From Branchiostoma floridae (Eukaryota; Chordata; Leptocardii; Amphioxiformes; Branchiostomatidae), in assembly GCF_000003815.2 (NCBI RefSeq), contig NC_049981.1:2408010-2472009 (forward strand): a stretch of DNA of 64,000 nucleotides, in the 5' to 3' direction. The notes under the pieces are model-generated. The model did no database searches. It saw only the letters and a program-made list of their open reading frames with translations, and was not told where the DNA came from. Numbering within the stretch: the stretch's first letter is position 1; each line of letters opens with the position of its first letter. Position numbers and translations under genes: made by a program. Of the stretch, positions 28,901 through 63,600 are shown one piece after another.

Positions 28901-29349
28901 CAGCAGAAACAGCAGTAACCATGAAAACAAACTTGGAGAATATAAACGGCAACACAAACAACAACAACAACAACAAAGACGCAGTGGGTTCATTTCCATT
29001 GCTGGAACAGATGCAAAGAATGATGGGAGAGAGCCCCTCAGATGAGGCTTTGATGAACCTTGCTCAAACAGAATCACTTTCCGACCCACCAAACCCCACC
29101 TCGCGAAGTCCCGACTCACCGCGTACCTCCAAACGGAAAAGCTATTCTGAAGACTACCCCCAGGAGCAGAACCCATTCGACGAGCCCACTTGTACTTACA
29201 ACAGCCCCTCCCAGCAGTATCCAGAGGAACTGAACCCATTTGAGGAAGTGGAGGAGCGAGTGGCGACAATCCAGGTCGATGAAATGTACATAAGCAGTCC
29301 CCTTGCCAACTCCAGTGTGCTGGGTCCTGAGGACAGTGCTGTGCAGTAG
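16911..29349 (+). CDS. ROCO-family protein: ankyrin, LRR, Roc-COR, no kinase
   Basis: Twelve exons join with matching phases: 16911-16961 (candidate first exon), 20321-20416, 20866-20970, 21329-21433, 22073-22180, 22515-22709, 23108-23277, 24438-24868, 25085-25470, 25924-26162, 26556-27030, 27574-29349. The product is 1,378 residues: ankyrin-like repeats (about 18-150), a linker helix region (156-276), LRRs (about 279-390), Roc GTPase (about 415-560) with P-loop G421..GKT428, switch-II DLAG (468-471) and THVD (531-534), COR (about 560-890), then a Cys/His-rich tail and NPF motifs. ROCO proteins are GTP-regulated signalling scaffolds, often at membranes and the cytoskeleton. The order resembles LRRK1, but no kinase follows COR. 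First exon is the least certain (0.5); the others are firm. Confidence 0.88.
17570..17640. mobile_element. LINE 3'-tail remnant
   Basis: AATAATAATCTTTATTGCAA followed by AATAAATAAAATATTGACATTGACATTGA: an A/T-rich tail with ATTGAC repeats, like the tail of the LINE at 35245-37043. No coding part remains. Confidence 0.4.
17641..20320. other. Presumed first intron of the ROCO gene
   Basis: AT-rich and without a supported exon. A 105-codon frame at 19918-20235 has no recognisable protein and is judged chance. Nothing else seen. Confidence 0.4.
20321..22709 (+). CDS. ROCO exons 2-6: ankyrin repeats and linker
   Basis: Exons 20321-20416, 20866-20970 and 21329-21433 each encode about one ankyrin repeat (LIQAVQRGDLTKVNDLIKSG; AVHVAALMGNTEVLDLLLSLG; PLTYAVMKSQADCVRSLISHG), all in phase 0 so that exons equal repeats. 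Exon 22073-22180 gives a degenerate fourth (KLAVDEAEGGRFDILNHLLEN) and 22515-22709 a linker. Three of these exons have decoy copies of their own 5' boundary in the preceding intron. Confidence 0.85.
20525..20865 (+). repeat. 112-bp tandem repeat copying an ankyrin-exon acceptor
   Basis: CCCACAG|ACCTTCCTTGG occurs at 20642 and (as CTCACAG) at 20754, exactly 112 and 224 bp before the real exon start at 20866. Each unit also carries CAGCTCCAGTCCGTCTAG and TATTTT(A/C)CCTGCC. Only the last copy opens into the full ankyrin exon. Confidence 0.85.
21190..21328 (+). repeat. About 45-bp tandem copies of the third ankyrin-exon boundary
   Basis: GGCACATAC preceded by AG occurs at 21193, 21238, 21285 and finally at the true exon start 21329, each followed by a version of GGAACCCCCCT. 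Spacing is 44-47 bp. Confidence 0.8.
21460..22072 (+). repeat. Minisatellite with four decoy copies of the following exon
   Basis: GACAGATGATGGAGAGCCTG and the next 25 bp of the exon at 22073 are present in degenerate form at about 21483, 21606, 21788 and 21930. Between them lie TGTTTGATTGACATG repeats. Copies at 21788 and 21930 are nearly exact for about 40 bp. Antisense ORFs over this region are products of the repeat. Confidence 0.85.
23371..23975. mobile_element. TA-flanked MITE in a ROCO intron
   Basis: Left end CCGTATATTCTCGAATAAAG; complement of right end CCGTATATTCTCGAATAAAA, then TACGCAC on both. TA dinucleotides flank it at 23369-23370 and 23976-23977, as for Tc1/mariner-type insertions. 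GGTGCGTACTTTATTTGAG motifs repeat inside. No transposase frame. Confidence 0.85.
24438..24868 (+). CDS. ROCO exon 8: leucine-rich repeats
   Basis: Encodes about five LRRs with spacing of 23-24 residues: LPDDIGELSNLEVLRLSFN, LPPGIGKCHALRYLAADHN, LPRELGQLADTLVSLFVNN, LPFELGLLRNLRYLSLENN. It then runs through LRPYLGETVEDRTVRVVLMG into the Roc P-loop, split by a phase-1 intron. GC-rich third positions contrast with the AT-rich introns. Confidence 0.92.
24889..24970 (+). repeat. Downstream copy of the LRR exon's 3' end
   Basis: CCGTACCTGGGTGAGACCGT and the next ~40 bp repeat the last ~60 bp of the LRR exon (CCGTACCTGGGAGAGACGGT) plus its donor, about 70 bp downstream. This is the donor-side version of the boundary duplications seen elsewhere. 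Confidence 0.75.
25085..25470 (+). CDS. ROCO exon 9: Roc GTPase core
   Basis: Carries GGRGAGKTTLL (P-loop), an IDIADV segment, VFDLAGD (switch II; small GTPases usually DxxG, here DLAG), LYLVTFDLS, and VILVGTHVDD (G4, in the THxD form typical of ROCO proteins). All key GTP-binding motifs are present, so GTP binding is expected. An internal GTAAGT at about 25130 is inside the coding sequence and is not used in this model. Confidence 0.92.
25924..27030 (+). CDS. ROCO exons 10-11: end of Roc and COR domain
   Basis: Exons 25924-26162 and 26556-27030 join at a phase-2 intron (GG|T = Gly). The second contains the helical COR core (ISNRIHNESIEQLKYAMEGY; VFLSTKWLTSQLGKLL). COR mediates dimerisation in known ROCO proteins. 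Confidence 0.85.
27574..29349 (+). CDS. ROCO exon 12: COR end, Cys/His-rich repeats, NPF tail
   Basis: The terminal exon encodes 591 residues. The first ~100 finish COR (VWADVEERYHGTLLALFRHV; RYPLSFFSSLVAAVERD). An acidic Ser/Glu-rich linker follows. Then two units pair a CPxCxLExxPxPAxF segment (28356, 28605) with a C(R/Q)NxHxLGTWxD segment (28485, 28695), probably zinc-binding. The Asn/Ser/Thr-rich tail ends with QNPFDE (29170) and LNPFEE (29233), EH-domain-type NPF motifs followed by acidic residues. There is no kinase, WD40 or death domain. Confidence 0.85.
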   Translation: MWADVEERYHGTLLALFRHVGISVKVCDTERDVFPGRIPACRPDDDIWNADLAPEESQITSVFSFSRYPLSFFSSLVAAVERDRAHSKLLVKNPAVYRQNCVVYVSSSVPTGCAVCRKRNLSHGDAWHLREAEIPDTTAAGQEDDREDSRIAHLLDVPEFSEEQKSRSTSSESLNVQEEPELPEADQQKSPAVIFDSSDSESSKTDFVATQKMHFYLNPKSRSLEVIVRGERPCCGMEHVREILAGIFMGKPRLTHQEKVVCPCCLLEGKPAPAFFARDPDMEPDGVRATHQNSHQQDGEEITCRNSHQLGTWRDLLKGTIPESFRARMRCGNHGDADSTDSIVCPACVLERHPEPAVFEHDEVGTEEQKPLVCQNGHELGTWGDIANGKIPEKYLQHREGTENGTDLPQKVTNRNSAEVTEQQVIQHTPSLTNQSHDRKEETAETAVTMKTNLENINGNTNNNNNNKDAVGSFPLLEQMQRMMGESPSDEALMNLAQTESLSDPPNPTSRSPDSPRTSKRKSYSEDYPQEQNPFDEPTCTYNSPSQQYPEELNPFEEVEERVATIQVDEMYISSPLANSSVLGPEDSAVQ

Positions 29350-32760: not shown

Positions 32761-35700
32761 ATGCCGAGAGCCCGGAAGAATGCAGGTGAGGTGCCGTGCG
32801 CGGCGTGTGGGCGGCGGGGGTCGCGCGGAGGGCCGAAGAGATGCGCAGGGGGAGGGGTGAAGGGAGGGTGGGTGCCATGTTGGTCCGAGCTCAGACGGTC
32901 TGCATGCTTGCATGAGATCGTCGCTGTGGTGGAACTGGCTCCGTGTTTACGTGATCGCGTCATGTGAGAGGTAAACAGACCCTACACGCTACAAACCACG
33001 CAAACATCGCCGCTCCAGTCGGCTATTAACGGCCTCCAACCCGTCGGAATCGCTCCCCAAAACCCGGGGTGTGTAGCTCTGGCCGCCTCTGTTTACTACA
33101 GTTTGATACCTTCTGTATAGATATGCAAACGCCCCCCTCCCCCTTCTCCATTCACACTCACCCCTCCCACTGTATAGTTTACACAAACGTGTGTCACACA
33201 TTCACACACACAAACACATCATAGAGCTGATTAGTAACACGCGTCCATTCTGTTTGGGATTCTTCCCACTAAACAGTTTGTGCAGAAACTGGTTTGTTTG
33301 GGTGTGTAAGGGGGGATTCTTTAGGTTGTTTTGTTTTCATTTGCAGGACAACTTTCACCTATTTGAGTCTGACTTTGCATTTTTTTCTCCAACATCTTCT
33401 TCAGTGATAATCAGTGATATGTAGTTTGATATTCTATATTGACCAATATAGAACAATAGTCATATTGCAATCATATCCTATCAAATTTACTTTCTGTCTT
33501 GCAGGTATTTTTTGTTCACAAATGCATGCATCTTTCCCCACCCAAGTTTGAGTTTGTTGTATACTTGTTTATTTTTTTGTCTACATGTGACTTTTGGTGA
33601 AATGTTGTCACTCATTTCATTTTGAAGATTTGACATTCATTAAACTGTAGATTCATTTAATTTTTCGATGTTTTTTTTCTGGAGTATTAAGAGAATGGGG
33701 ATTTTCAAGATGTTTTTAGACACACAGTTTAAATGATTATGTAGTGCACAGTAGACAACTTATAAGACACATATTCACAGCGTTGTAAATTCACGATAAA
33801 GAAGAAACAGTAAAGATAAAACCACCGCAAACATGTCAAGATTTCCAATACTGATACTGAAAGAAAGCATGCCCCTATATTGTCCTCTACAGCACAATAC
33901 AAATTCGTCTCAAATTATCAATTCTATCAATCAGCGTCTGAAAGACATTTATTTTCAAACTTTTTTAAGAGAGATACACAATGACAACAAAGGTGGATCC
34001 GCTAAAAACAAATTGAGGTCTTACAGACTGTTCAAGTCCACTTATAATGTGGAACAATACCTGGATATTGACAATATTCGGCACAGGACGGCCGTCACAA
34101 AACTACGAGTCAGTTGCCACAAGTTACACATCGAAACCGGAAGACATAACCGCACTCCTCTAGAACAACGAATATGTAGATACTGCAATCTAGATAAGTT
34201 AGAAGACGAACATCATTTTGTAGTAGAATGTAGTTTGTACAAGTGGGTTTATGAGCTGGTGGCCTGGGTTCGGCACAGGTTTGAATCCCGAGAGCCAGTA
34301 AACTGTTCCTACTCACCTCTTCAGCTCCCACACCAGGAATCGAACCCAGGCCTTGGTGGTGAGAGCGCCAAATCCTAACCACTAGACCACTGTTTCTACT
34401 GGTCTCTTACAGTATATTGCCCCAAACACCTTCATAGACCCTAACTCTCATCAACAAGCTTTAAGTCTGATGGACTCTTTGATATTTTTTTAGACATTGC
34501 CTCCAGTGAGAGAAGTCTTATATTAACGTGTTAGCTAGTGCTGCATATCTAAACTCATATTCAGGTTCAGGCCAGGATTCAGGATCGGGTCTGGACTCGT
34601 AAATACAAGCAAATTACAGGGATATAATGTTAAAAAGAAAGCCACTGTTTTCGGTCATTTTTCTACATTATGAGTTGAGTCTACCTCGTTACACTGCATA
34701 GCAATATTTACAATGTATGGATACGACTTTGTTGCGAGGTGAGGACGTCTTGAAATATGCGCACTTCCCACCGCCGCTTGAGTTGCCCGCCATTTTATTC
34801 AACTCTCCGGTGAACCAAAGTGTGCTTTAGAACGCGTTCGGTGGTTTGCTCGAATCGTTACTGAAGTTTGTTGAAAGTCCCTGCTAAGCTCCGAAGATCT
34901 GCGACCGCAAAGGTCGATTCGGAAATCTACGGCCGTCTTACTTCCAGAAGTAAGGGCTTACTTTGGCGTTGTTGATTAGCGCTAGAAATGTGAAAAAATG
35001 ATGCAGATAAGTTTGAAAAAAGTTACAAATGTCAATCTGACTGGAGATTTTAAAGTTTGAACAGAAAATTTGAAATTTGAAGTCAGTAGTTGACACAAAG
35101 GGTCAGTAATGAACACAAAATGTTGTTGTCTTTTTTACAGTGCAAATTTCACTTACTATGGAAGGTTGTAGATGGTTTAGAACAAAAAATAGTATATAAG
35201 TAAGATTGCTTTTTGCATGTCCGGACTTGGTTTCCGACATTTAGTTGTTCAATGTTCAATGTTCAATGTTTTATTTTATTAAGGTTCTCGCGGGCAAACA
35301 CACATTCACCCGAATTTTGACCTTATTACACACGTCAGGCTTACCAAAGCCACACAAAACACATAATAACAACAGCTGCATACAAACAACGACTTGTAGA
35401 TTCCAGTTAACATTTGTATAACATACATAATAGATTAAAATCAACGTATTGGAAAACGGTACCGAGTTAACAAGCAGTACAGGAATGGCTAACAACAAGT
35501 GTTAATAGCACTACTGTGTAACCTTCTTGTTGTATAGACGGATGGCGCTATGGAGGAAGGACTTGCTGAGTCTCTTAGTACGGGCTTTTGGTAAACTGAT
35601 TGTCCTAGAGTTTCTAAGTGTGCGTCCCGTGGCCCCTGTTCTTGTGGGTGGAACCATGTCATGTAGGGGGTGGTCTTCCTTGAGCATGCGTTCAAACAGC

Positions 35701-38700
35701 TGTACCGCTGCCTCCTCCCGTCTGACCTTCAGTGTTGGCAAGTCGGGCACACTGCGTCTACCTCCAAGGGAGATGATGCGCAGGGCCCGGCGCTGTACCC
35801 TCTCGATGGCCAGTTCCTGCTCCTTACTGCACCCGACCAGTATCACATGGCCATACTCAAGTACTGGACGTACAAGTGACAGGTATATCTGTATCAGGTC
35901 CGTTATACTGGTACCTTGCTTCGTCAACAGACGCAGATAATATAGTCTGCGCGATGCTTTACTGATCATTGCAGAGATCTGTTCGTCGAAGGTGAGGTTC
36001 TTGTCCATGTAGAAACCTAGCCCCTTGGCACAGTCAACGGATGGGACTGGTTGGCCTCCAAGTGTGATCATAGGTGGAATCGGAGCAGATTTGCTGAAGC
36101 AGATCTGGAGAAGTAAACTCTTCCCACCGTTCAGCGTCATCCTGTTGTCTTCTGCCCAGGAGTTAAGATGTGTAGACTCCTCTTCAACAGTTGTATCCTG
36201 ATCGGCTAAAGGCACAGGAATAGTCCTCGACAGAGAAACGTCATCGGCATATCCAACATCCATTGTGTCGTTGTACACGGTGGAGCGTGTGCTCATGAAC
36301 AGCAGAAATAGGTACGGAGACAGCACTCCTCCCTGGGGCACCCCTGACGTTAGGGTGCGCCAGGAGCTGCTCTCCCCGTCCATAACCACTCTCTGCCGTC
36401 GGTTCTGTAAGAAGCTGAAAATCCATCTCTGCATACGAGGGCTGACGTGAATGTCAATGACACGCTGGAGAAGCAGAGCATGGTCCACGCGATCGAACGC
36501 CTTACTCATGTCAGCGAAGATGGCTCTGACGAGCGTCGGCTTGTTTGCGTCCACAGCTGTCAGCCACGTTTGCACCATGCGAACAAGAGCCAGGGTCGTT
36601 GACGAACCCTTTGCATAGGCGTACTGGTTCTTGATGACTGACTGGATGGAGGGTAGCAGCCTTTTCAAGATGCATCTCTCTAGAAGCTTTGCTAAGACTG
36701 AGAGGAGGGACACTGGTCTCATGTCACGAGCTTGACATGCACCGGGAAATTTTGGCACCGGGACCACGTTTGCAGACTTCCAGCCTACAGGAACTGTCCC
36801 CTCTGCGTATGAGGCGTTGAAAAGGTGGGTCACAATCGGAGCAAGGTCCTCTGCGAACTCAGTAAGAATCCAGTTAGGTAAACTGTCGGGCCCGCATGCC
36901 TTCTTGGGTTTGACGGACTTCAGAAGGCACTTGACCTCCCCAATGGAGCACAAGTCAGGACCTGGGTCACCTAGTGGTAGGGGGAACATGTAAAGTGGAA
37001 CACTTTGGCAACATTTGTTGTTTTTGTACTTGGACTTAAACATTTTTACAAGTCGAGTTCCAGTTCAAAGTTTTACGTACACAGCACTAGTGTGAGCACC
37101 CTTCAAAGGGAATCCATTTCTATTTTTACTATTAATTTTTGATATAGTATAATTAGATGCTTGTATGCACCTGTTCATTTGAACAATATGTTAATAATAT
37201 ACATGTCTCTCATGTACATTAACAGTATTACCCACATGAATTTTTGATGTTGCAAGCAGCACATAAGTATGATAATCAAACATATTTTCTTATTTTTGTC
37301 ATATTTTAAAACAGTCAGGAATATGACATTACCATACCATATATCTAATTTTTACTCAGGGCTCGAAATTCAATTTTGGGATTAGGTGCACTGGTGCACC
37401 CAGCTTAAGAAATTGGGTGCACCAAAAATTTTTTGAGTGCACCACTTTAAATTGAAGTAATAACCTAGTAATAAAACTTAGTTACAAGCTATCAAATTAG
37501 TTAAACAAGTACCATGATAGACATTTTTATTATCTTTCTAACACTTAGATGTCAAGAATATGATATATACTAGTATACTTTGATATCTTATACACACAAC
37601 CTAAGAAAATAATTGGGTGCACAGCTCCAAAAAAGCCCTGTTACTTTACCAATAGCTGTTGTTAATTGTAGTTTAGCATTTCATGTAAATTAGTATAGAA
37701 TTGAGGACACCAGTAATAATGTTCATGTCTTCTATTTGCTAATAAAAGGTTATCAATTTATATCTGAAAGAGTAGGGAAGAAATGATTAATGGTTTTATG
37801 ATTTGCAGAAAGTTTCATTGACTTGATAAAGGGAAATTTCTGACAACTTGCAGTTTAGAATATTATTTAATTATAAGTAAACTCAACAGAGGAGTTACAC
37901 AAGAGCTGATGTTTTGGTGACCGTCTGTCAACTTCCTCAGGCAATACTTCTGGTTCTACTCTGCACTGCAGGTATAGGTGGCGCTGCTTACAATGCAGTC
38001 CCTAACATATTGCCTTATTTACATAGTCAAGACACTTCTTAAGAATGTGATCCCACATGTGTACCATCAAATGGCTTAGAAGTAGCATTTGCAAGTTAAT
38101 TGGGCCATTTCCTTGCTTTCTACGATTTTTGATCTTAGAGTACATTTGTAGGCCTAGGCTATAGCCCAAAAGAGTCTATACCCTCCTTCAGCATAGTTCA
38201 TGACTGGAGTGGATTTTCCCCAAACTCTCGCCTCACTAGAAATTTACTGGCTTTGACAAACTCCAAAATTGCAAATACTCCTCTTCCTTCTACTCATAAC
38301 ATTAGAGGAGTAACTGCTCTGGCAGACCCTCCAAAAATAATAAACATAAGCAAAGTGAGCACTAGCTGGTTGTGCAGAAGAATTCTACAATATCCTGCTC
38401 TGGCATACAACTATCTAAGTCCTCCTTGAAACTTGTCCACATGGAGACCATTTCCTGACTTCCCTGTAGTATACACAGAGTGACAAAGCCTGTCATGGCT
38501 GTAACTTGTAACGAAGCACATATCCAGAACGTATTTGTGCATGCAATGATGCAAGTGAACATAAGGTGCACTGGAGTGTCACTGACGTTTCGAAAGTCAC
38601 ATCCAGTTGCTTGGGTAACTGCTATGTGGCATATCTGCTTATTACCTGGATGTCTTGCCTTCATGATGTATGAACTCCCTTTCCAGTTATCATCATTTTT

Positions 38701-44700: not shown

Positions 44701-47700
44701 CCCCCAGCGTATAATTTATTCATTACAGAAACTGCAGGAGATGAGAAATGAATATCGTTAAGATGTGACATGGTACAGCTGAGCCAGTCCCCGCAGTGTA
44801 ACATATTCATTACAAATATAGTCTCAGTTGCTGGCAAAATGATACTGATAAGTGTGTGATGTTGGACTGCTGAGCTGGTCCCCTTGCGATGTTTATGCAT
44901 TGCAAAAGTCTGAGACGGGAAATGAAACTGCTGACATCAGCAGACTCTGATTCTCCAGCCCACGGCAAAGCGCAGGGTTCGAAGCCTACGGCTGGAGACA
45001 TGTCTAGAGCATAGTCCGGCCACTTGTATCTGCGAGAGGTACCCTGCAGTCATTATTGCGTATGGGACAGGTTTCTGGAGACAAGAGATATTTCTGCATG
45101 TGAGACAAGTTTCTGGGTTCAACAGGTATTTCTGGAATGGAACAAGTTTCTGGTATCATAGATGTTTCCTCGTCGGGGACAGGTTTCTGGGTACTACAGG
45201 TATTTCTGCGTATGGGACAAGTTTCTGGGTGCAGCAAGGATTAAAGCTTATGGGACACTTTTCTGGGTATGACAGGTATTTTTGTGTATGGGACACAAGT
45301 CTCTGTTACTGTAGATATTTCTGTGTACAGGACAAGTTTCTGGGTAGGACAGATATTTCTGCATATCTGACAAGTTTCTTGGGAGGACAGATATTTCTGT
45401 GTGTACAGGACAAGTTTTCGTTACTACAGATATTTCTATGTATGGGACAACTTTCTGGTATGGCAGATATTTCTGCATAAGTTTTTGGTACTACACTACA
45501 AATATTTCTGCATATGGGACAAGTTTTTGGGTAGGACAGATACTTCTGGTTATGAGACAAGTGTCTTGTACGGCAGATATTTTTGCCAATTTTTCTGGGT
45601 AGGACAGATATTTCTGGTACAGGACAAGTTTCTGGTAGGACATCTGTGTTTCTGCGTATGGGACAAGTTTCTGGTACCCCAGATATTTCTGTGTATGGGA
45701 CAAGTTTCTGGTCCAACATTTTCTTGTGTGGGACAAGTTTCTGGGGAGGACAGATATTTCTGCGTTTGGGGCGAGTAACTACAGATATTTCTGTGTATGG
45801 GACAAGTTTCTGGTACCCCAGATATTTCTGTGTATGGGACAAGTTTCTGGTACCCCAGATATTTCTGTGTATGGGACAAGTTTCTGGTACCCCAGATATT
45901 TCTGTGTATGGGACAAGTTTCTGGTACCCCAGATATTTCTGTGTATGGGACAAGTTTCTGGTACCCCAGATATTTCTGTGTATGGGACAAGTTTCTGGTA
46001 CCCCAGATATTTCTATGTATGGGACAAGTTTTTGGTCCAACGTTTTCTTGTGTGGGACAAGTTTCTGGGGAGGACAGATATTTCTGCGTATGGGGCGAGT
46101 AACTACAGATATTTCTATATATAGGACTATTTTCTGGTACTACAGATATTTCTACGCATGGGACAAGTTTCGTCACGACAGTCTACAGATACTAACTTGA
46201 AGGGTGTTAACAAATTACAAACTGTATTACGGTACATCATCACAGTTTCAGTACAGTAACAGGATGTGTTGTTATGTACAGCTGGTGTTCCTGAAGGGCG
46301 TTGCGGACCACGTGTTCGAGCAGAAGGTGGACGAGTTGTCAGAGTATCTGGACGAGACGTACGACCCTGAAGACATGGTGAGCACTTTCACTTTTTTCTT
46401 CAAGACAAACTGAGCAAGACAAGAAATGTACTTGAGATTTTTGACATGCTGAAATGTACAGTTCTTCAAGTCAGGCTTTTAGACAGGCATGCGTCCAGGC
46501 ATCATTTGGTCACACTTTTCTTGAAATAACAAGAAATTGGACGCACTAGACATCCTTACACTGGGGAGCAGGTCCTCTGACAAGCATGAAATTCTGATTG
46601 ACCATTGATGCCACTAGGTAATTTGTGGTCGCAGTCTTCTACTGTGACCTCTCCTTACAGTAATTAAATGCTCCTTAGAATAACCTTAGAATGCACCATT
46701 TTAACTTAAAATTCTTGAAAACTCTGCACCATGGAAGGTGGAGGTTGTCCCCGATTTACCACGACTCACCAAGAAATTTGGACCCCCTATGAGAATCCTT
46801 GCTGAAAGCCTGTTTACAGTATTAACCTGTTGTTGTCTGCCATGCCCACAGAGAGCCGTTCCTATTGGCCAGGACAGTCTGAAGAACACCTACTGGTACT
46901 TCGATGGTGAGTAGGAAAGTCTCTGGATGGTTTTTGTGAAGCCTCAGCGATGTCATGTATCCACTATGGTGTCATGTTTTATGAACTTTGGGAGATAAGT
47001 AAAATACTGAGTGTTTTTTTTAATGTGTGAGGAACGAGTGGGTACTTAATCATAATGTGAAGGAGTTTGCATTTTTATGTCCTAAAACATAACCTGTCAT
47101 AAACATAACACCCCCTTCTGGAGTTCAGTGCTCATTTCCACCTCTGACCCCTTCAGGTCAGTGTAATCTGCATATTACCTCTGACCCTTCTAGGTCATGT
47201 GTACATTGACTTCTGACCCTACTGGTAATATTATCTGCATATTTACCTTTGGCCCTTCCAGGTAATATGAAATCTGCATATTGACCTCTGACACCTCCAG
47301 GTCAAGCCCAACTGCACATATCCGGTCTTTTATGTCCCTCGTAGTAGTAGGATATTGGTAAATATCCTTGCCTTCAGATTTGGTCTTTTTACACAGCTAC
47401 TTGTTTCTCCTCAGACTTGCGGCTGTACAAAGAGACAGTCGGAAGGAAGGGGGAGAAGTGGGAGTGTGTCTGCAGCAATCTTAAGGAGTGGACCTCCTTC
47501 GTCAAGAAGTTCCGCAAGTCGTCCCACCCCCAGGAGAAGGAGCTCTACGAGTTTCTGCATGGCCAGCTACTGCCGCTTATCCTGGGGCCACTTCAGACAC
47601 TGGAGGGACTGTCTCAGGTAAGAACCCCCCTCGGTACCCCCTCTCAGCTAACCCCCTCAGGTAACACCCCCTCCCCCAGCTGCTGCTGCTGCTTATCCTT

Positions 47701-51300: not shown

Positions 51301-54300
51301 GTTACCCATGGGAACAGCTGTATCAGGTGCAGCTTGGTGGCCCAAGACACCTTAGCATCAGGTGTAGGTTGGATACAGCTGACAGGTGTCTTCCCTTTTC
51401 CAGGTGCAGTCCGGTAACCCATGGCAACAGATGCAGGCCAGCCAGATGGGTTATGGTTCAGACTTGGCACTGAACCCATCAGCGGGCCCGGGAGGAGCGC
51501 CGCCCCAACAGCTACCCTCCAAACCACCCCCACCATACCCGGGCAGCGCCTCCCTAGAGGCAGGGGGGACGGAGGGCCTGACACCGGAGCAGCTTCGCCA
51601 TCGCCAGGAGCGGCTGATGACCATCCAGCGCATGCACAAGCTGCTGTTCCCTGAACAGGCGCAGACGGCGCCCCCTAGTGACTCCCTAGCAGCACAGCAG
51701 CAGCTGGACCTGGCCAGCCTACAGGGGCAGCCCCTGGGGCGGGGGATGCCGGGCGGCCCACCACGACCCGTGGGCCCCGGGGGACTCAACATGCAGCAGC
51801 AGCCCAGCCCGGGCAACCTACCTCCCAATCAGATGATGTCACCGCACGGAATGATGACATCACAAGCAAACATGATGACATCACAGGGTTGGACCGACCC
51901 TTCCCAGAGTGCAGCAGCTCACAAGGTGGCCATGATGGGGCTGGGGTCGCCGGGGTCAGAGGGCATGGGTTCGCCGGGTCAGCTGGGCGATGATCAGATG
52001 TCGGCTGCGCAGATCGAGTGGCGACGGCTGGAGGAGAGTTTCTACCGCGAGAAACGGAAACGGATGCTGGAGCAGCAGATGATGCGTGGAGGGCCGTATG
52101 GGGGACAGAGGTAACTCACTCACACTCATTCACCGACTCACAGTCACTCACACTCACTCACACACTCTTTATGCGTACACTCATTCACTCTTTCACTCCG
52201 TTGATTGATGGAGGGCTGTACAGGGTACAGAGGTACACTAACTTATTCACTCTCTTACTCATTCATCAGCACTTACTCCTTCACATACTCTCTTACTTAC
52301 CAGCTAGCTGTAAATACATACTAGCTTAACATTTAACTCAGACTACAAAATGTGGAGCACACAGAGGCAGCTGCAACCTATGAACAGTGGCAAAATTTCA
52401 GCATTTTGAAAATGAATGGCTAGTAAAAGACACTTATACGCTCTAGTGTTTCAAGTTGTCAGTTTCTTTATTTGTCCTGTAAAATTTATTTTTCAATGTG
52501 TGCGGGGAACAGCATTGTCCAAGTTGTTTTCAGCCCATAATGCTTTACCCCTGCCTCCATTCTAGGTACCCTGGTCCGCAACAGTTCTTACCTCAGGACT
52601 ATGATGGCCCCCCAGACTCCCAGGGGGCCTTGCAGACTATGCAGCCGCCACCACCGTACCAGGACCTGGCGCGGTTAAACCGACAGCAAACTGGCTTCTC
52701 TACCTCATTCAGTGAGCCCTACACACTGCTGCAGTCACAGCCACAGGGGGCGCCGCAGGACAGACATCCAATGCTGCAGTCTCAGCCACAGCCACAGGGG
52801 GCGCCCCAGGAAAGACATCCAATGCTGCAGTCCCAGCCACAGCCACAGGGGGCGCCCCAGGACAGAAATCCTCTTCTGCAGCCCCAGCCACAGGGGGCAC
52901 CCCAGGACAGACATCCAATGCTGCAGTCCCAACCACAGCCACAGGGGGCGCCACTGGACGGCACCTCCCCCAACTTCAGTATTAGCCAACAGCTTCAGGA
53001 AAGGGCGCGGCTATCGGCCCAGCGGGAACAGCTTCCGCAGTATGCAGGTGGGCAGCCAGCCAGACACCCAGCCCGACCACCATTTAGACACCCAACAGGA
53101 CACCCAGCTGCACACCCAGGCGGACACCCACAACGCTTCATGTACCCCATGCAGGACCGCCCTCGCCCCCAGGTTTGTATCTCTTAAACAGGTATAACTA
53201 TGTAGTGCACCAGCTTCTGTGTCTATATATGTATGGCTGATATGAGAACCCTTAAGAACAACACACCAGCTTCTGCATCTGTATGTGTATCTGTATAGTC
53301 GTATAAAGCTCCCTTCAACATAAAATTCCAGTGTCTATATGTGGATTTATCTGTATTTGCCTTTTGCACAACACACCAGCTTCTATATCCATACAGCTAG
53401 TTACTCCCTTCAGCATAACACACCAGTTTCTATATCTGTATAGCCCTAATAGTAATAACCCCCCTTTAGCTTCTGTATCTTATCATGGAAGGTCATCTGT
53501 GAACCCTCTGGTATAACTCTCCAGCAATAGTTCTTGGAGAAAAATAATTTTGGAACACTTAAAAACTGGATTGATAAATCTGACTCATGACAGTTTCTTG
53601 TTTTGATTTTTACATCCAAACAAGGTCTCCCCATCACAACAATCTGCCATGCAGAGATTGATGATGTCACAGCAGAGTCTGATGATGTCACAGCAGGGAC
53701 CGATGACATCACCAGGTATGATGTCACCGGATGGGTCGGATGGAGGGCTGCTGATGGAGTTCCCGCGGCAACGACACCAACCTGGCAGCGATATGATGTC
53801 ACCCAACTCTGCAGCCAGCCCACAGGGTCAGATGCCACTGGGGGTCAAGGGGCAGAGTTCAGGGGGAAGTGAAGGCACCCCCCCAGATAACGGTCGGTCC
53901 AGCCAGCAGTCAAACCAGCCTGAAACCAGCCTGCCCTCGAACTCACAACCCAACTCCAGACAGCCTAGCCAGATGCCCAACCAGCCCACAACCAGCCACC
54001 TTCCCAATGAGCCCACAACCGGCCAACAGCAATTGTCTACAACAACGCAACCTTCTTCCAACCAGTCTACCACTGCCCAACCCTCAGTGAACCAGCCCTC
54101 TACCAGCCAGCAGCTGTCCAACCAGACAGTATCCAGTCCAGCCGTTACCAGCCAGCCGCCGACCTTTGCCCCCAGCTCCCTGCAACAGCTGGAGCAGCAC
54201 TTTTCCAAGAGGTTCATGCCGGGCTTCGACGAGGCGCCGTTCAGTAAAACCACCGCCATTAGCACCACTAACGCCATGACCTCCGGCTCCACCACTGTTA

Positions 54301-57015
54301 CCATGACAACCGCCGCGGTGTCCAGTCGAACCGGGACCTCGGCTTCGGACGGTTCTGTTGCCATGGCGCCCAAGTTCAAGGCTCCCCCTCCCCCGACTAA
54401 CGGCGTGAAGCCATTGGCCAGCGGTGATAACGACAATGTCGCGTCTCCACACGCTGCTGCTGAAAACAGAACTGTGTCACCTGCTGGGTCATCCCCAGCA
54501 CAGGTCAAAGGACAAGGGTCAGCAGATTCAAAGCCCATGTCCCCAGCTGTGAAGTCACCTGCAGTTCCCCAATCTGCCCAGCAGGGGTCCTCGCCAGCAC
54601 CGGTGCCCTCCCCCAAACTGAAGCGGCAGCCATCTCCAGCCCTGGCAAACTCCCCGGCCGTGCAGTCTTTACGCTCCCCCGCGCCGGGCTCGCCATTCGC
54701 TCAGCCGCTTAAGTCGCCCATGGAGAAAAAGTCGCCAAAGATTCCACCGCCATTGAAGTCACCCTCAGAGGTCAAATCTCCCATGATGCCACAGAGGCAG
54801 TCGCCAGGACTGAGGTCACCCACAATGCCTCAGGAAGCAGGCAGTGGTGTTCCGAGCTCTCCTGCTGTGCCCATCAAATCCCCCGCTGTCCTCAAGTCTC
54901 CCAGCATGCCTAGCAATTCTCCCATGATGCAGCAGGTCAAGTCGCCCATGAGGCGGCAGGAGAGTTCCCCAGTGGTTACCATGGTGAGGCAAGAAATCCC
55001 CAAAACCATGTTGCCGGAGAGGTCACAGGTCATCCCCACAACAATGCGACCTTTGTTGCCAAGGCAACCACAGCAACTGGACACCATGAGTCAAGGTCAG
55101 AGGCTGGCAATGATGGCTGGTCAAAGTGCAATGTTAGGTCAAAGTTCAATGGGACCACAGATGTCAGTGGCCTCGTCAGGACAGTTCAGCCATCAGATGG
55201 GCGGTTTCCCCCGGCAACCATCACCAGGGCAACGCCATATGATGGGCCGTGCAGCGCAGTACCTGGCCCGTCCGCCAGGTGGCGACCTGGAGAACCAGTC
55301 GAGAGGGAACATTATGTACTCCCAGTCACAACTGGTTCAGATGCAGGCACGCTATATGGCTGGGCTGAGGCAAGACACCCCCTCACCAGCAATGGTACCT
55401 CCCGGAATGAGACAGGACACCCCCGCTGCAGCAATGGTGTCATCCCAGCCCAGGCCCACCTTTGAACCCCAGACACCTGTGGAAATTGGACCAAACACGG
55501 AGTTCGCCCTGGCTTTCCAGAAACGGGGGCCCCCCTCCCCACCACAGAACAGGTTTCCCAGCCCACAGCACTCCCAGCCCCCACACCCTGGGGATCCAAG
55601 ATACTCCCACCCTGGGGACATGCAATTCAGCGAGCCTCAACAAGTAATGGATGCAAGATATCCTCACCCCGGGGACAGCAGGTTCCCCCACCCTGGGGAG
55701 AGATTTCCCCAACCTGGGGAAAATAGGATCCCCCACCCAGGGGACAGCAGGTTTCCCCACCCTGGAGACAGCAGGTTCCCCCACCCAGCAGAAAGGTTCC
55801 CCCACCCTAGGGAGGAAAGGTTTTCCCACCCAGGGGACAACAGATTTCCCCACCCTGGGGATAACCGGTTTCCACATCCTGGGGTCAGCAGGTTCCCCCA
55901 GCAAGGCAACCAGAGATACCCCCACCCTGGGGAGAGATATCCCCACCCTCACCCCTCCTTAGACAGTAGGTTTCCCCACCCAGGGGAAGGCAGGTATGGG
56001 GAGGAGAGGTACCTGGCCCAGGCGGCCGGGGATAGCCGGTTTGTGGCACAGCGGATGGCAGGGATGCTGCAGGTGGGTTGGTTTTTAACAGCCAAAAAAT
56101 GACTGAAATTCCACAACAGTTTACAACTCATAAGAAAGTACATTGTTTATTTGAGCTTTAAATTATCTATCAGCACTTCACTTGGTGCTATATGGCACTT
56201 CTAGGGCTGTTTGAGCTGTTTGTTTGGTGTGCCTTATGTTCATTGTTCACATAAGAGTGTGAAGTATTGCAGGGAACTTGACAGCCTATGTTTGTGTTGT
56301 ATTTCTGCAGGACGGTCTGGAGGAGGCGAGCTTGATGGACAGGTCAGTAGCACTACAGAACCTGCAGAACATGCTCGGTCCACCGCGATCCATGGCAGAG
56401 TCACTTAGCAACAACATGGAGGCGTTTCCAGGGCAACGACAAATGGTGGAAGAGATGAGATCGCAAGAGGCAGTGCAAAGCATGTTGGGAAGGATGATGC
56501 AGTCCCACAATGCCATGGGAAATGCTGCCATGCAAAAGTCTGGCATGCCTGCAGGTCTGTCCCATGGTGCAATGCAAGGACCAAGAATGACCACGCCCTA
56601 CAGCACAGCAGATGGGGCCATGGCAGCAGGTCAAGGGTCGGTGGGAGGTCAAATGTCAGGAGGTCAAATGTCGCCAGGGGGTTTGATGTTCAAAGCGCCG
56701 GGGCCGATGGGGGATGCTGGGATGGGCGTTCCCGTACAGGACATTCAGCAGACTAGGAAGGCACAACGGTTCGTGTTGCCAACGGAAACACCAACCAGAA
56801 CTCTGCAGTATTTTCCCGCAGGGAAACCTGCCGAGCGGGCGCCGCACCCGGGCATGATGCAGCCCGCTATGAGTGCCCCGAACCTCTCGGCCAATCAGGA
56901 GCCTCAAAAGAGGATTTCTTTCTCCGAGGAGAACCTGATGCAAGCTGGGGTCAGAGCAATGAACCCTGGGTATCCTGCAATGAACCATGGGTACTCAGGC
57001 TACCCTGGACAGTAG
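32761..57015 (+). CDS. BCL9-like: CECR2-like N-terminus fused to BCL9/Legless
   Basis: Fifteen exons join without a phase conflict: 32761-32785, 39143-39249, 39978-40072, 44109-44217, 46282-46377, 46852-46906, 47415-47617, 48168-48347, 49761-50163, 50421-50563, 50729-50830, 51404-52110, 52566-53172, 53625-56072, 56311-57015. The total is 5,985 nt, 1,994 residues. Residues 9-230 resemble the CECR2 N-terminal (DDT/WHIM-type) region. A basic NLS (KKRKR, 398-402) follows, then BCL9 HD1 (about 459-506, Pygopus-binding), HD2 (565-592, beta-catenin-binding), an HD3-like helix (708-735), long Pro/Gln/Ser-rich tracts and a conserved TLQYFP motif (about 1924). BCL9 is the nuclear adaptor linking beta-catenin to Pygopus. 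The usual BCL9 has no CECR2-like head, so this is either a true fusion or two genes joined by my model. Confidence 0.82.
33833..34270 (+). mobile_element. LINE-derived fragment with zinc knuckle
   Basis: The frame ends with HRTAVTKLRVSCHKLHIETG and ICRYCNLDKLEDEHHFVVEC, a C-x2-C...H-x4-C module found at the C-terminus of some metazoan LINE ORF2 proteins. After SLYK the frame runs into a tRNA-Glu-like sequence, so the fragment is cut there. In intron 1, same strand as the host gene. Confidence 0.6.
34327..34397 (-). pseudogene. tRNA-Glu-like pseudogene or SINE head
   Basis: On the minus strand it reads GTGGTCTAGTGGTTAGGATT, TGGCGCTCTCACCACC, GGGTTCGATTCCTGG: D arm, CTC anticodon loop and T arm of tRNA-Glu. 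The 5' bases that should form the acceptor stem do not pair with the 3' TGTGGGA, so it cannot be a normal tRNA. Confidence 0.7.
34400..35244. other. Intron 1 segment without recognised features
   Basis: Unique-looking sequence; no coding or repeat structure seen. Confidence 0.35.
35245..37043 (-). mobile_element. CR1/L2-like LINE, reverse transcriptase, 5'-truncated
   Basis: The minus-strand frame 37043-35511 (510 codons) has RT motifs in order: VVPVPKFPGA, RPVSLLSVLAKLLER, AIFADMSKAFDRVDH, SGVPQGGVLSPYLF, then VGYADDVSL with the catalytic YADD, and the thumb/C-terminal part to YNKKVTQ. The 3' end (35245-35275 on +) is an A/T-rich tail plus ATTGAAC repeats. The endonuclease domain is absent, so the copy is truncated, although this RT frame is intact. 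Inserted antisense in intron 1 of the BCL9 gene. Confidence 0.9.
37357..37640. mobile_element. MITE with CAGGGCT ends and TTACT duplication
   Basis: Starts CAGGGCTCGAAATTC and ends GGAGCTGT-like ...CTCCAAAAAAGCCCTG; TTACT precedes and follows it. GGTGCAC(C) motifs repeat inside. The 5-bp duplication and CAGGG end match the element at 465-873. Confidence 0.65.
37641..38834. other. Intron 1 segment
   Basis: No exon found. A stretch near 38590-38660 (CATCCAGTTGCTTGGGTAAC ... TTATTACCTGGATGT) recurs in degenerate form near 22800, so it is a dispersed repeat. Confidence 0.4.
38835..39142 (+). repeat. About 100-bp tandem copies of BCL9-gene exon 2 boundary
   Basis: GAGGAGCCTGGGAGCTAGTC, the start of exon 2, occurs at about 38848, 38955 and 39058 before the real copy at 39168. 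Two of the copies are also preceded by (T)ACAGAACCAGAGG, mimicking the true acceptor ACAG|AACTAGAGG. Confidence 0.85.
40073..40300 (+). repeat. Tandem copies of exon 3 donor region
   Basis: CACATCAGGTGAGAATATGC and variants follow the real donor (GATATCAG|GTTAGAATAT) at about 70-bp steps, each with GTCATAGGTCAGAGTTC. The copies have better GTGAGA donors than the real exon. Confidence 0.7.
40692..41772. mobile_element. Probable non-autonomous DNA element
   Basis: The left end GTAACGGGGGCCGCCCTAAG..ACGG and the complement of the right end GTAACGGGAGGTGCCCCAAC..ACGGTACG are similar inverted repeats. No transposase frame. Target duplication unclear. Confidence 0.45.
42524..43096. mobile_element. 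MITE with about 95-bp inverted ends
   Basis: GGGCTTGAAATACCACCTGC at the left is mirrored by GCAGGTGGTATTTCGAGCCC-type sequence at the right, and the match continues through the GTGCAGGTA and GTGTCTAC motifs. It shares the GGGCT(T/C)GAAAT start with the element at 37357. An inner partial copy starts near 42768. Confidence 0.7.
43870..44108 (+). repeat. Tandem repeat leading into exon 4 acceptor
   Basis: Units with TAACCAATCA(T/G)GGAGCCTG, TTACATCCAG and AACCAATGGCTGTCTTTG recur at about 65-70 bp steps up to the acceptor TTGTTCCTCCAG. Confidence 0.7.
45060..46180. repeat. 37-bp minisatellite in intron 4
   Basis: Units of the type GGGACAAGTTTCTGGTACCC / CAGATATTTCTGTGTAT. The period is 37 bp, with near-identical units at about 45780-46020 and degenerate flanks; roughly 1.1 kb in all. 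Six-frame ORFs of up to 244 codons here are repeat artefacts. Confidence 0.95.
47709..48010 (+). repeat. Downstream copies of exon 7 end and CCCA/poly-C tract
   Basis: CTTCAGACACTGGAGGGACT with its donor CTCAG|GTAAG recurs at about 47709 and, more degenerate, near 47895 and 47985, after the real exon end at 47617. A (CCCA)n and poly-C tract occupies 47745-47815. Confidence 0.8.
48733..49606 (-). mobile_element. TA-flanked MITE, CAGTCAAACCTG family, copy 2
   Basis: Perfect CAGTCAAACCTGC / GCAGGTTTGACTG ends and TA on both sides. Its right 100 bp is the complement of the left 100 bp of the copy at 30971. It is longer by about 390 bp in the middle. In intron 8. Confidence 0.88.
49761..57015 (+). 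CDS. BCL9 module, exons 9-15
   Basis: Exon 9 gives a low-complexity Asn/Pro/Ser/Thr stretch and the NLS. HD1 is split over exons 10 and 11 (YAYIFSTELANK | AAEAVLQGRVQSIVAFHIEH), with a GC-AG intron between. Exon 12 carries HD2 (LTPEQLRHRQERLMTIQRMH then KLLFPEQ) and an HD3-like helix (IEWRRLEESFYREKRKRM). Exons 13-14 are Pro/Gln/Met-rich with SP(A/M)(V/K) repeats and HPGDxRFP repeats. Exon 15 ends with ETPTRTLQYFP and a Gly/Met/Pro-rich tail. The match to BCL9/BCL9L is good at every known homology domain. Confidence 0.92.
50564..50728 (+). other. GC-AG intron inside the HD1 coding region
   Basis: The donor reads AAG|GCAAGT, the standard context of GC-AG introns, and the acceptor CCCCCTAG|GCTGCAG. 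Joining gives ANK|AAEAVLQG, the unbroken HD1 core. No GT within reach restores the frame. Confidence 0.85.
51055..51345 (+). repeat. 36-bp tandem copies of exon 12's first bases
   Basis: Eight copies of (CAGGTGCAGCTC)GGTTACCCATGG(G/C)AACAG at 36-bp steps (51087, 51122, 51158 ... 51299) precede the real CAG|GTGCAGTCCGGTAACCC at 51404. Each unit is 12 codons and open in the exon-type frame. Confidence 0.88.
52728..52965 (+). repeat. Coding repeat LQSQPQPQGAPQDRHPM in exon 13
   Basis: Five units of 45-54 bp encode variants of LQSQPQPQGAPQDRHPM. Unit length is always a multiple of three. A Gln/Pro-rich disordered segment between HD2 and the C-terminal region. Confidence 0.85.
55585..56000 (+). 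repeat. Coding repeat FPHPGDSR in exon 14
   Basis: About fifteen 8-residue units (HPGDSRFP, HPGERFPQ, HPGDNRFP) encoded by 21-30 bp steps. Disordered, Pro/Arg/His-rich. Confidence 0.85.
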
Positions 57016-60269: not shown

Positions 60270-61400
60270 GAGAGGTGCACATTTTCTCCTTGTTAATCAA
60301 TGTTTAAGCTAAGTTGTTTTTCACTCATATTTAGCTGGCATTTACCCGAACTTAGCTTGTGTATATGTGATAATGGAGGTGACGTCATTGGCGGGAAAGT
60401 TACCAAATGTGTTGGGAAGTTTGAAATGTCAAGAGGCGGTAATGCGATACAAGTGCTGTTAAGTTTTTGTTCCAACATTTGCATGTTGCTCGCCGTGCAC
60501 TTTGCATTTACGCAAAGGTGAACAATAGAATTTTGATTTGAGGCCAGTGGGTTGCTATTCTAGAAGGACACTGTATCGCTCTCCTTTCAAAACCTTTTAT
60601 CTCTCCAATTGAAGTCAAGTACCCATTCTTACACCTTGGTTGAGTGAGGAAAGTCTTGATCCCCATTGTTTGTTTTTCGTTATCTTTTTGTATTTTCATG
60701 CTTTGATGTAGTGTAGATGTAATTGTTTTACATTTGAATCAGTTTTTTATGCAAGGGCATAAAATAAAAAATGAATTAAAAGATAAGCATTAACACAAAA
60801 TGAAGCCTCAGATGTCCAAAATCGAAAGGTCACGTCGTTCGAATCCTGGCGGTCGGATATATGTTATGTCCATAGGAAACAAGGCGAGGTCGAGTTGGTG
60901 CTTTTCTAATGGGCTTGAGATTTGCTATAGAAACTAAGACGTTGATTTTGAAATCTAGTTATTAGACTCGTATATATTTTCAATTTCCTGCATGCGGTAA
61001 AAGTCTTTTCTGGAAGCTCCAACAGCAAAGTTTGAGCTCCTCGGCAACTCCAGCTCCAACGGCACCGAAGTTGCCTTGGAAACCGCCAATCACCGACCAC
61101 TCCTGAAGTTTCTCACCAACCAGCGCTCACCCTCCCGTGTTACGTCACAGGCTACACACACACACAGCTTGAAAAGAATAAAGTGAGTTCTGAAGGTGCA
61201 ACAGGTTGCTACGACGCCCAGGGCACTCCGGGGTCATGTGTCAACAGGTGTGACTCCGGTTCACCTGTGCAGCACACCTGAGGTTCCCACCTGCCGACAG
61301 GAAAGGTGTCTAAACACACCTGCCGTTCCCAACCTGCCGACAGGGGAGGTGTTTAAATCTGCGTGCAGGGGGAGAGGAGCGTCAGACGAAGCCGAGGAGT
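60270..61400. other. 5' flank of the neuropeptide gene
   Basis: No coding sequence found. A CRE-like TTACGTCA is at about 61140, followed by a short CA repeat. No clear TATA box. Confidence 0.4.
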
Positions 61401-61415
61401 CTTCCTGTCCTGACG

Positions 61416-61423
61416 TGACGTCA
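61416..61423. promoter_or_regulatory. Perfect CRE overlapping the neuropeptide start codon
   Basis: TGACGTCA, whose last A is the A of the ATG. CREs are common in peptide-hormone promoters, but this one would lie in transcribed sequence unless transcription starts very close. Confidence 0.3.
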
Positions 61424-63045
61424 TGATGATCCAAGTTGGTGTCGTGCTTGTACTGGTGGGGCTGCAGCTGGTGCAGGTAGGCGGAATGTCTCCTTAAGTC
61501 TTTACGTCTTAGATCTTAAGTCTTTACGTCTTAGACCTGCAGCTGGTGCAGGTAGGCTGAACGTCGTCTTACGTCTTTACGTCTTACATGTTAAGTCTTT
61601 ACGTCTTAGACCTACAGCTGGTGCATGTAGACTGAAAGTCTTCTTACGTCTTCCGTCGTAAGTCTTTACGTCTTAAATCTTCACGTCGTATGTGTTAGAC
61701 CTGCAGCAGGTGCAGGTAGGCAGGGCAGAATGTTTTCTTACGTCTTTACGGTCTTACGATTTAAGTCTTCAAGTTTGTACGTCCTAAGTCTTTACATGTT
61801 GAGGCAACTTGGAGCTGTACTTGTCCTGGTGGGGCTGCATCTGACGCAGTTAGGCAGGGCAGAGCGTTTTCGATAGTCAAGAACGAGCTGACTAAGGATA
61901 CAGTGAACGTTATCCAAACCTTTTGGATCTACCCAATTGTAACATGTAATATAACCTGCCGTTTCCTCCCCAGACCAGCCCGCTCCCCGTCCATCAACCC
62001 AGACAGCTTCCGGACAATCTGCGGGAGGAGCAAGGTAAGGAAAATCACTGCGATTCACTATTAGTATTACACGACAGTGACTTTATCATGTTCAGTCGGC
62101 TTTACACGTTGAAACTAATGTACTAGTGTTGATCTTTCTGCCAATTTATTTTAGTGACGCTAAAAAAGACTGATTTCAGGATGTTATTCAGTTACACAGC
62201 AGGTTGAATTGTCCTTGCATATAAATCACCGATATTGCTACACATGAGAGGAACATGTTTTAAACATTTCAGTTAAGCGTCGGCTTCAAGATCTCCAGGA
62301 GAACCTCGGCAACGGCTTTCCTAGAAAGCGACAATTCCAAGATCCCCAGGAGAACCTCGGCAACGGCTTTCCTGGAAAGCGACAATTCCAAGATCCCCAG
62401 GAGAACCTCGGCAACGGCTTTCCTGGCAAACGACAGTTTCAAGATCCCCAGGAGAGCCTCGGCAACGGCTTTCCTGGAAAGCGGCAGTTTCAAGATCCCC
62501 AGGAAAGCCTCGGCAACGGCTTTCCTGGAAAGCGACAGTTTCAGGATCTCCATGAGAACCTCGGTAACGGCTTTCCCGGCATACGGCAGTTTCAAGATCC
62601 CCAGGAGAGCCTCGGCAACGGCTTTCCCGGCAAACGGCAGGTTCAAGATCCCCAGGAGAGCCTCGGCAACGGCTTTCCCGGAAAGCGACAGTTTCAAGAT
62701 CCCCAGGAGAACCTCGGCAACGGCTTTCCTGGAAAGCGGCAATTTAAAGATCCCCAGGAGGACCTCGGCAACGGCTTTCCCGGCAAACGACAGTTTCATG
62801 ATCCCCAGGAGACCCTCGGCAACGGCTTTCCCGGCAAACGGCAGTTTCAAGATCCCCAGGAGAACCTCGGCAACGGCTTTCCCGGCAAACGGCAGGTTCA
62901 AGATCCCCAGGAGAACCTCGGCAATGGCTTTCCTGGAAAGCGGCAATTTAAAGATCCCCAGGAGGACTTCGGCAACGGCTTTCCCGGCAAACGGCAGTTT
63001 CAAGATCCCCAGGAGAGCCTCGGCAATGGCTTTCCTGGCAAGTAA
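61423..63045 (+). CDS. Multi-copy amidated neuropeptide precursor
   Basis: Three exons, 61423-61476, 61974-62034 and 62273-63045, join in frame (888 nt, 295 residues). Exon 1 is a signal-peptide core (MMIQVGVVLVLVGLQLVQ). Exon 2 gives a short spacer (TSPLPVHQPRQLPDNLREEQ). Exon 3 starts with VKR and then has 15 tandem 17-residue units, consensus QFQDPQENLGNGFPGKR, to the TAA. KR sites suit prohormone convertases; the Gly before KR is the amide donor; the N-terminal Gln can cyclise. The expected main product is pQFQDPQENLGNGFP-amide. Exon 3 contains no Met, which is why it is easy to overlook. Splice sites are CAG|GTAGG, TCCCCAG|A, CAAG|GTAAGG and CATTTCAG|T. I do not recognise the peptide; the NGF-x-amide end recalls NG-type deuterostome peptides, but no neurophysin domain is present. 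Confidence 0.92.
61480..61790 (+). repeat. Tandem repeat with copies of the signal exon's end
   Basis: GACCTGCAGCTGGTGCAGGT and variants at about 61535, 61608 and 61697 copy the last bases and donor of exon 1. They are spaced by TCTTACGTCTTTACGTCTTA repeats. Confidence 0.85.
61796..61849 (+). pseudogene. Dead duplicate of the neuropeptide signal-peptide exon
   Basis: An ATG opens exactly 18 codons (MLRQLGAVLVLVGLHLTQ) that align one for one with exon 1 (MMIQVGVVLVLVGLQLVQ) and end at CAG, but the donor is TT instead of GT (CAG|TTAGGC). The exon can thus not splice normally. Confidence 0.8.
62281..63042 (+). repeat. 51-bp tandem array encoding 15 peptides
   Basis: Units start at 62281 and every 51 bp. 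Variation: unit 1 begins RLQDL and ends PRKR (no Gly); unit 6 is QFQDLHENLGNGFPGIR (KR lost); units 8 and 13 begin QV; 10 and 14 QFKDPQED; 11 QFHDPQET; position 8 is N, S, D or T. The last unit ends GK then stop. GNGFP is invariant in all 15. Confidence 0.97.
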
Positions 63046-63600
63046 CCGCTTAAAAACCACAGGAAGGCGGCCGCAAAGGCTCCTTTCTTCCCTCACAATC
63101 GTTAGCCATGGTTGAAACCACTGTGAAGTCAAGGCAAGGTCTATCGCGCCACCTAGCGTGTAATGTAGATTTTGCATTCTCGTTCTGCTAACTTCTACAC
63201 TTCATTGGAACTGGAACAAAAGCAATGTAATAGGATCACTAGGCAGCTAAGTAGCTGGTATTGTGACCGCATACATATTTTGTACCAAAATGAACATAAC
63301 GTGTTGATAATTGAATAATACTAGCGGTAAACTTGAAGAAATGCTCCTTGTAAATCCCGCTCTGCACTTTGTACTGTGACTCCAAAAGTTGCTCACATCT
63401 CTAAACTTAGCCCCAACCCTATCCAGAACCCTAACCCTGACTCTAACCCTAAACTAATCCACAACCCCAACCCTAACTTCACGCACGCACGCGCATTCGC
63501 CTCACGTAGCCAAAAAATCTGGCTAAGCACAAAATTGGTTCCGTTATGGCAGTTTCTACTTCTTCACTTTCTCAGATGGGATGTAATAAAGCATGGCATG
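63046..63600 (+). terminator. 3' flank with AATAAA and telomere-like repeats
   Basis: AATAAA at 63595-63600 is a candidate poly(A) signal 550 bp after the stop. At about 63417-63480 degenerate CCCTAA repeats (AACCCTAACCCT, CTAACCCTAA, CCCAACCCTAA) form a short interstitial telomere-like tract. Confidence 0.4.

Follow-up and report, generated by a model that had tools for sequence, protein, structure and literature searches.

Structure of the gene and its repeat array

Three exon-like segments on the + strand of the window (the whole 64-kb stretch of DNA that was analysed) join into a single reading frame. Exon 1 (61423-61476) supplies the initiating Met and a signal-peptide core, MMIQVGVVLVLVGLQLVQ, and ends in phase 0 at the donor CAG/GTAGGC. 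Exon 2 (61974-62034), which lies between the acceptor CCCCAG/ACC and the donor CAAG/GTAAGG, encodes the spacer TSPLPVHQPRQLPDNLREEQ(V) and ends in phase 1. Exon 3 (62273-63045) follows the acceptor TTTCAG/TTAAG and continues with (V)KR, then with 15 units of 17 residues, to the stop codon TAA. The spliced CDS of the three exons, rebuilt by script from the sequence, has compatible phases and comprises 888 nt and 295 aa, with no Cys in the 295 residues. All the parts that an earlier note on this DNA had described, namely a signal exon, a spacer exon, a repeat exon and consistent phases, are present.

Within 61423-62272, the exon 2 donor has the top simple consensus donor score, and the exon 1 donor ranks second, tied with its own two copies in intron 1. 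The signal exon has a hydrophobic core (maximum 11-residue Kyte-Doolittle value of 2.94), and its codon usage scores 9.5 bits in its own frame, with -8.8 and -0.3 out of frame; there is no positive charge in the n-region, and the cleavage site appears indistinct as judged by eye. Codon usage of exon 2 does not single out its own frame (9.0 bits versus 2.6 and 9.05).

The array in exon 3 consists of 15 units of exactly 51 nt each, without indels. Four of them (units 2, 3, 9, and 12) match the consensus QFQDPQENLGNGFPGKR exactly, all 15 contain GNGFP, and 14 of the 15 begin with Gln. The residues preceding the cleavage site are Phe-Pro in every unit, and amide-donor ends are found in 13 of the 15 (12 GKR and one terminal GK-stop in unit 15). 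Unit 1 (62281-62331; RLQDLQENLGNGFPRKR) ends in RKR, so that the dibasic site is retained, and lacks both the N-terminal Gln and the amide-donor Gly. Units 2-5 (62332-62535) are predicted to give four amidated 14-mers. Unit 6 (62536-62586) ends in GNGFPGIR, where Lys is replaced by Ile and no dibasic site is left; this unit probably stays joined to unit 7. Units 7-14 (62587-62994) carry eight amide-donor ends, and unit 15 (62995-63045) ends in GNGFPGK-stop, which would become an amide donor once the terminal Lys is removed. The 13 amide-donor ends agree with the earlier claim of up to 13 amidated peptides. However, since unit 6 lacks a dibasic site, the expected yield, unless this unit is cut at its single Arg, is 12 free amidated 14-mers and one amidated 31-mer rather than 13, where unit 2 is counted as free by taking the RKR of unit 1 as a cleavable site.

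The Lys codon of the 15 units is AAG in eight, AAA in six, and ATA in one; the Arg codon is CGG in eight and CGA in six, with the stop in the remaining one; and the first codon is CAG in ten, CAA in four, and CGG in one. The Lys, Arg, and Gln codons therefore vary synonymously among the units, and the cleavage site and the N-terminal Gln are conserved.

Selection among the open frames of the array

Three of the six frames (+0, +1, and -0) run through the array free of stops. Besides the neuropeptide frame, they are a sense frame of 283 aa and an antisense frame of 310 aa (62269-63201). Since a stop-free 51-bp repeat stays open over an entire array, openness is weak evidence, and the neuropeptide frame might be open by chance in an array that is a non-coding tandem repeat or that codes in another frame. 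The two further frames, which are fully open too, speak for this reading, as does the finding that about one in ten shuffled 51-mers (501/5000) yields an open frame, in any of the six, containing G[KR][KR]; GKR occurred in such a frame in 51/5000 and G[KR][KR]Q in 22/5000. A G[KR][KR]-type motif in an open frame is by itself only moderately rare; the weight rests on the selection on the frame, the signal exon, and the matching phases. Among all stop-to-stop frames of the window, the neuropeptide frame contains 12 G[KR][KR] motifs, the runner-up three, and all others fewer than three.

Over units 2-14 (13 of the 15, the divergent array ends, units 1 and 15, being omitted from the selection tests), the neuropeptide frame has a pN/pS of 0.175, compared with 9.3 for the other open frame in the sense direction and 1.69 for the antisense one. 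Among the three open frames, purifying selection is seen in the neuropeptide frame alone. Codon usage over the array points the same way, with 117.4 bits in the neuropeptide frame versus 32.4 and 28.4 in the other two, but it serves as corroboration only, because its reference consists of six long window frames, only two of which match Pfam above cut-off (one to BCL9, the other to Cornifin on a repeat), and because exon 2 was not singled out by it. Moreover, the splice phases and the signal exon match the neuropeptide frame. With selection and codon usage both against them, the antisense and alternative sense frames are rejected, and it is highly improbable that the neuropeptide frame is open by chance in a non-coding repeat or in an array read in another frame. 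For a protein encoded on the antisense strand, the Pfam matches are all sub-threshold (MSSS at 19.7 bits with a cut-off of 26.8, and PH0730-like_N at 15.4 with a cut-off of 30.2). A further antisense frame with a pN/pS of 0.243 is no rival, as it has nine stops across the stretch of units 2-14.

Within the units, selection is unevenly distributed. Codons 10-15 (GNGFPG) of units 2-14 show no amino-acid changes (pN 0, pS 0.30); four of their 18 columns are variable, all at third positions and all synonymous (P 0.005, approximate since the units are non-independent through duplication and conversion). Codons 1-9 are looser, with a pN/pS of 0.38. A looser N-terminal half is the usual pattern when a receptor reads the amidated C-terminus. 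Over the whole unit, 18 of the 51 columns are variable: four at first, three at second, and 11 at third codon positions (P 0.0027). Of 20 column changes, 10 are synonymous, where 5.7 would be expected (P 0.019). Both P values are approximate for the same reason; units 10 and 14, for example, differ at only two of 51 bases. The earlier proposal that selection acts on the peptide, with dN/dS among the units as a check, is borne out by the low pN/pS and by the unchanged GNGFPG. Its remark that the long exon has no Met and that antisense frames may mislead was also correct, as exon 3 contains no in-frame ATG and the long antisense frame has the pN/pS of 1.69 given above.

The chemistry of the units bears on another reading, in which the frame encodes a secreted repeat protein or a non-neural peptide (mucus, adhesive, antimicrobial, or pheromone) and the GKR separators are coincidental. 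Exact-length tandem repeats are also frequent in structural proteins, and Gln, Gly, and Pro are abundant in the units, which leaves room for a non-neural repeat protein. However, Gly before and Gln after nearly every Lys-Arg form the signature of amidated pyroglutamate peptides and have no evident structural role, Lys and Arg are preserved through synonymous change, and the 14-mers are not cationic. Overall, it seems very unlikely that the GKR separators are a coincidence of this kind.

Predicted products and comparison with known peptide families

Very probably, this locus is an animal gene of three exons that encodes a multi-copy precursor of neuropeptides or peptide hormones. As predicted from its sequence, it is a well-formed neuropeptide-type precursor gene under selection. 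Precursors of this kind are known to undergo entry into the secretory pathway by a signal peptide, cleavage by convertases, trimming by carboxypeptidases, amidation by PAM, and cyclisation of Gln; we infer the same steps here because the corresponding motifs are present. The gene would be transcribed and the N-terminal signal would direct the precursor into the secretory pathway, where prohormone convertases would cleave after the Lys-Arg pairs. A carboxypeptidase would then trim the exposed basic residues, PAM would use the Gly uncovered in this way to form a C-terminal Pro-amide, and pyroglutamate would arise by cyclisation of the N-terminal Gln. The secreted GNGFP-amide would presumably act on a G-protein-coupled receptor.

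The expected products are 12 free copies of pQ(F/V)xDPQEx(L/F)GNGFP-amide. The most frequent would be pQFQDPQENLGNGFPa, in four copies (units 2, 3, 9, and 12), followed by pQFQDPQESLGNGFPa in three free copies (units 4, 5, and 15), to which unit 7 would be added if it were released from unit 6. For these two peptides, [M+H]+ is calculated at 1572.708 and 1545.697, respectively. Units 8, 10, 11, 13, and 14 would each give a single variant, and the remaining products would be the unamidated unit 1 and the fused peptide of units 6-7. The invariant C-terminal GNGFP-amide is probably the part that contacts the receptor, and the N-terminal half, which varies, a segment that tolerates change.

In searches of databases, no Pfam family matched the precursor above cut-off (the only match, DUF5338, scored 14.9 bits against 25.9), NCBIfam, a prokaryote library, gave no matches, and solved structures gave none to the first 109 residues. 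The absence of domain matches is common for precursors of short peptides. Scans of viral contigs and of prokaryote genome contigs gave one and 14 pattern matches, respectively, none of them a relative, as expected for an animal gene. No Rfam or tRNA match was found in the 64-kb window.

The literature searches covered the main text of 5.39 million open-access papers and returned no title concerning this peptide. The string 'GNGFP' appeared in this open-access text only in two papers, on an OMV vaccine and on Nipah virus, as judged from the listing, and six repeat strings of the units were absent from it. Searches of the same text for C-terminal peptide names returned, besides Hydra LFPamide, only two papers, judged unrelated from the listing, and topic searches gave no title or abstract opening naming a GNGFP-amide peptide among the matches listed. 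The description of the peptide as unrecognised in the earlier note therefore holds for the open-access main text searched and is supported no further; a 2013 survey is likely to list this peptide.

For the comparison with known peptides, the family definitions were drawn from descriptions in excerpts of the papers cited, and the precursor is set apart on those descriptions. The general traits of multi-copy amidated precursors are present, namely repeated peptides with an amide-donor Gly before a basic site and selection concentrated in the C-terminal peptide motif (codons 10-15). Among the types tested, TRH-type, kisspeptin-type, NG peptide, calcitonin, and RFamide each fail in at least one tested defining feature. 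As judged from the encoded peptides, the precursor resembles TRH-style multi-copy amidated precursors in its working and fits none of the families tested.

Like TRH-type precursors, which the excerpts describe in vertebrates, echinoderms, and amphioxus, it is multi-copy, bounded by dibasic sites, and has an N-terminal Gln and a C-terminal Gly, and chordate TRH also ends in a Pro-amide. However, TRH in chordates is described there as the tripeptide pQHPa, and as pQSPa in B. floridae (PMC4772807), whereas the peptide here has 14 residues. Kisspeptin-type peptides of B. floridae are likewise amidated and have Asn and Phe close to their C-terminus; in the source excerpt, the type is defined by two Asn, at 7/8 and 5/6 counted from the C-terminal residue, together with Phe/Trp at 3/4, and the B. 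floridae system comprises four precursors and 16 receptors (PMC4062910). Counted from the C-terminus, the units here have Phe at 1 and Asn at 6 and/or 3, and the kisspeptin-type Asn/Phe spacing is matched by none of the 15.

NG peptides and neuropeptide S are alike in having Asn-Gly, found here in 15/15 units, near the amidated end, and NGFFFamide has Asn-Gly-Phe. However, the NG precursors of sea urchin and B. floridae, the latter with the peptide SFRNGVamide, are described as having a neurophysin domain (PMC5818035), which is absent here (the precursor has no Cys, and Pfam gave no match above cut-off). A C-terminal Pro-amide is shared with calcitonin/CGRP-type peptides, but the N-terminal Cys-Cys ring given for these in the excerpt (PMC6283891) is absent from a precursor without Cys. 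The RFamide families (GnIH/NPFF, QRFP, and PrRP) end in Arg-Phe- or Arg-Tyr-amide, in contrast to the Phe-Pro of all 15 units; PrRP-type peptides are RFamides or RYamides by the source excerpt, and a B. floridae candidate has already been reported (PMC7314547). The preprohormone of the Hydra vulgaris LFPamide, a cnidarian gene that its authors termed novel, also yields a C-terminal Phe-Pro-amide, with Leu preceding Phe-Pro versus Gly here (PMC8638164). The likeness to Hydra LFPamide is probably convergent, since Phe-Pro-amide is too little to argue kinship.

As a special case of the precursor reading, the gene may belong to a known family, with the kisspeptin-like type, which is expanded in amphioxus, or the TRH-like type as the most plausible, and have evolved fast enough for its defining motif to drift. 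Kisspeptin-10 has Asn-Ser-Phe close to its C-terminus, comparable to the Asn-Gly-Phe near the C-terminus here, and TRH precursors, as described in the excerpts, are multi-copy with pyroglutamate and amide ends. However, the expected motif spacing, length, neurophysin, and Cys-ring features are not found in this precursor, and drift from a known family is considered unlikely.

It is conceivable, and put forward here tentatively, that GNGFP-amide is the ligand of a distinct and unrecognised peptide-receptor system with an orphan rhodopsin-type receptor, which either was born within the lineage or was present in the deuterostome ancestor and lost or transformed past recognition in vertebrates. 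Amphioxus represents the chordate lineage that branches outside vertebrates and tunicates. If the gene is an amphioxus gene, GNGFP-amide would be a clear and directly testable ligand candidate in amphioxus, as a multi-copy 14-residue peptide is open to synthesis, detection by mass, and screening against orphan receptors. A multi-copy precursor in a Met-less exon, with frames open on both strands, could escape gene finders, and the locus may reveal an uncatalogued animal hormone.

Gene history, flanking elements and other features of the window

Intron 1 of the precursor gene contains an ungapped duplicate of exon 1 on the + strand (61796-61849), identical at 42 of 54 positions, a score that none of 2000 shuffles attained. 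It is open and signal-like (MLRQLGAVLVLVGLHLTQ), and it is probably a dead copy. As an alternative first exon it was rejected because its donor GT is replaced by TT, although use of a different donor is possible. The same intron and strand also contain 75-bp tandem repeats (61462-61674), which include the exon 1 tail with an extra donor (61552), and a further exon 1-type donor at 61716. When both strands of the window were scanned without gaps, matches of at least 31/51 to the unit consensus were confined to the 15 units, and matches of at least 34/54 to exon 1 were confined to exon 1 itself and its duplicate.

A possible remnant of a 16th unit lies just past the stop on the + strand (63052-63081), with P 0.0055 for a unit-15-like query and 0.0495 for the general consensus, and is under the 31/51 threshold of the ungapped scan. 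If it is a decayed unit, the stop codon might have shortened a formerly longer array, although the indication is weak. Neither exon 2 nor intron 2 gave support for a decayed unit (P 0.66 and 0.70).

Around the gene, a TTTAAAT heptamer on the + strand (61352-61358), 71 bp 5' of the ATG, is a possible TATA-like element by consensus match only; seven heptamers of this type occur on the + strand of the window. The CRE palindrome TGACGTCA (61416-61423, + strand), whose final base also opens the start codon, is a possible cAMP-response element; such octamers occur six times in the window. The candidate poly(A) signal AATAAA (63585-63590, + strand) lies 540 bp 3' of the stop; the window has 30 of these hexamers on its + strand. 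Directly 5' of the putative promoter, 61273-61357 is a 43-bp duplication in two copies with 86 percent matches.

Upstream on the + strand, 51383-57015 contains a BCL9 homolog: its segment 51383-52111 matches Pfam BCL9 with E 2.6e-8, a match that supports an animal origin of the window. The frame 53607-56102, which scores as Cornifin, carries repeats of the RFPHPGD/RFPHPGE-like type near 55665-55933. The frames of 51383-57015 would appear to form one BCL9 gene, the long frame that ends at 57015, 4.4 kb upstream of the precursor gene, being its 3' part. In 24352-29349, a leucine-rich repeat frame is followed downstream by another frame, whose COR-B match is sub-threshold (19.5 bits, cut-off 27), and this region is possibly a ROC-COR type gene. 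On the - strand, 35511-37064 is the reverse transcriptase frame of a retroelement (RVT_1, E 6.7e-20 on the tested part, 36300-37064). Two very long open frames of 1050 and 1854 aa occupy 2616-11372; they have no Pfam match above cut-off and contain QTDPxQSEQ-like and SQDFGQIQDNQTMQ repeats with Ser-Arg-rich stretches. Finally, 44935-46200 has long open frames with repeated motifs on both strands and is probably a gene-like non-coding repeat.
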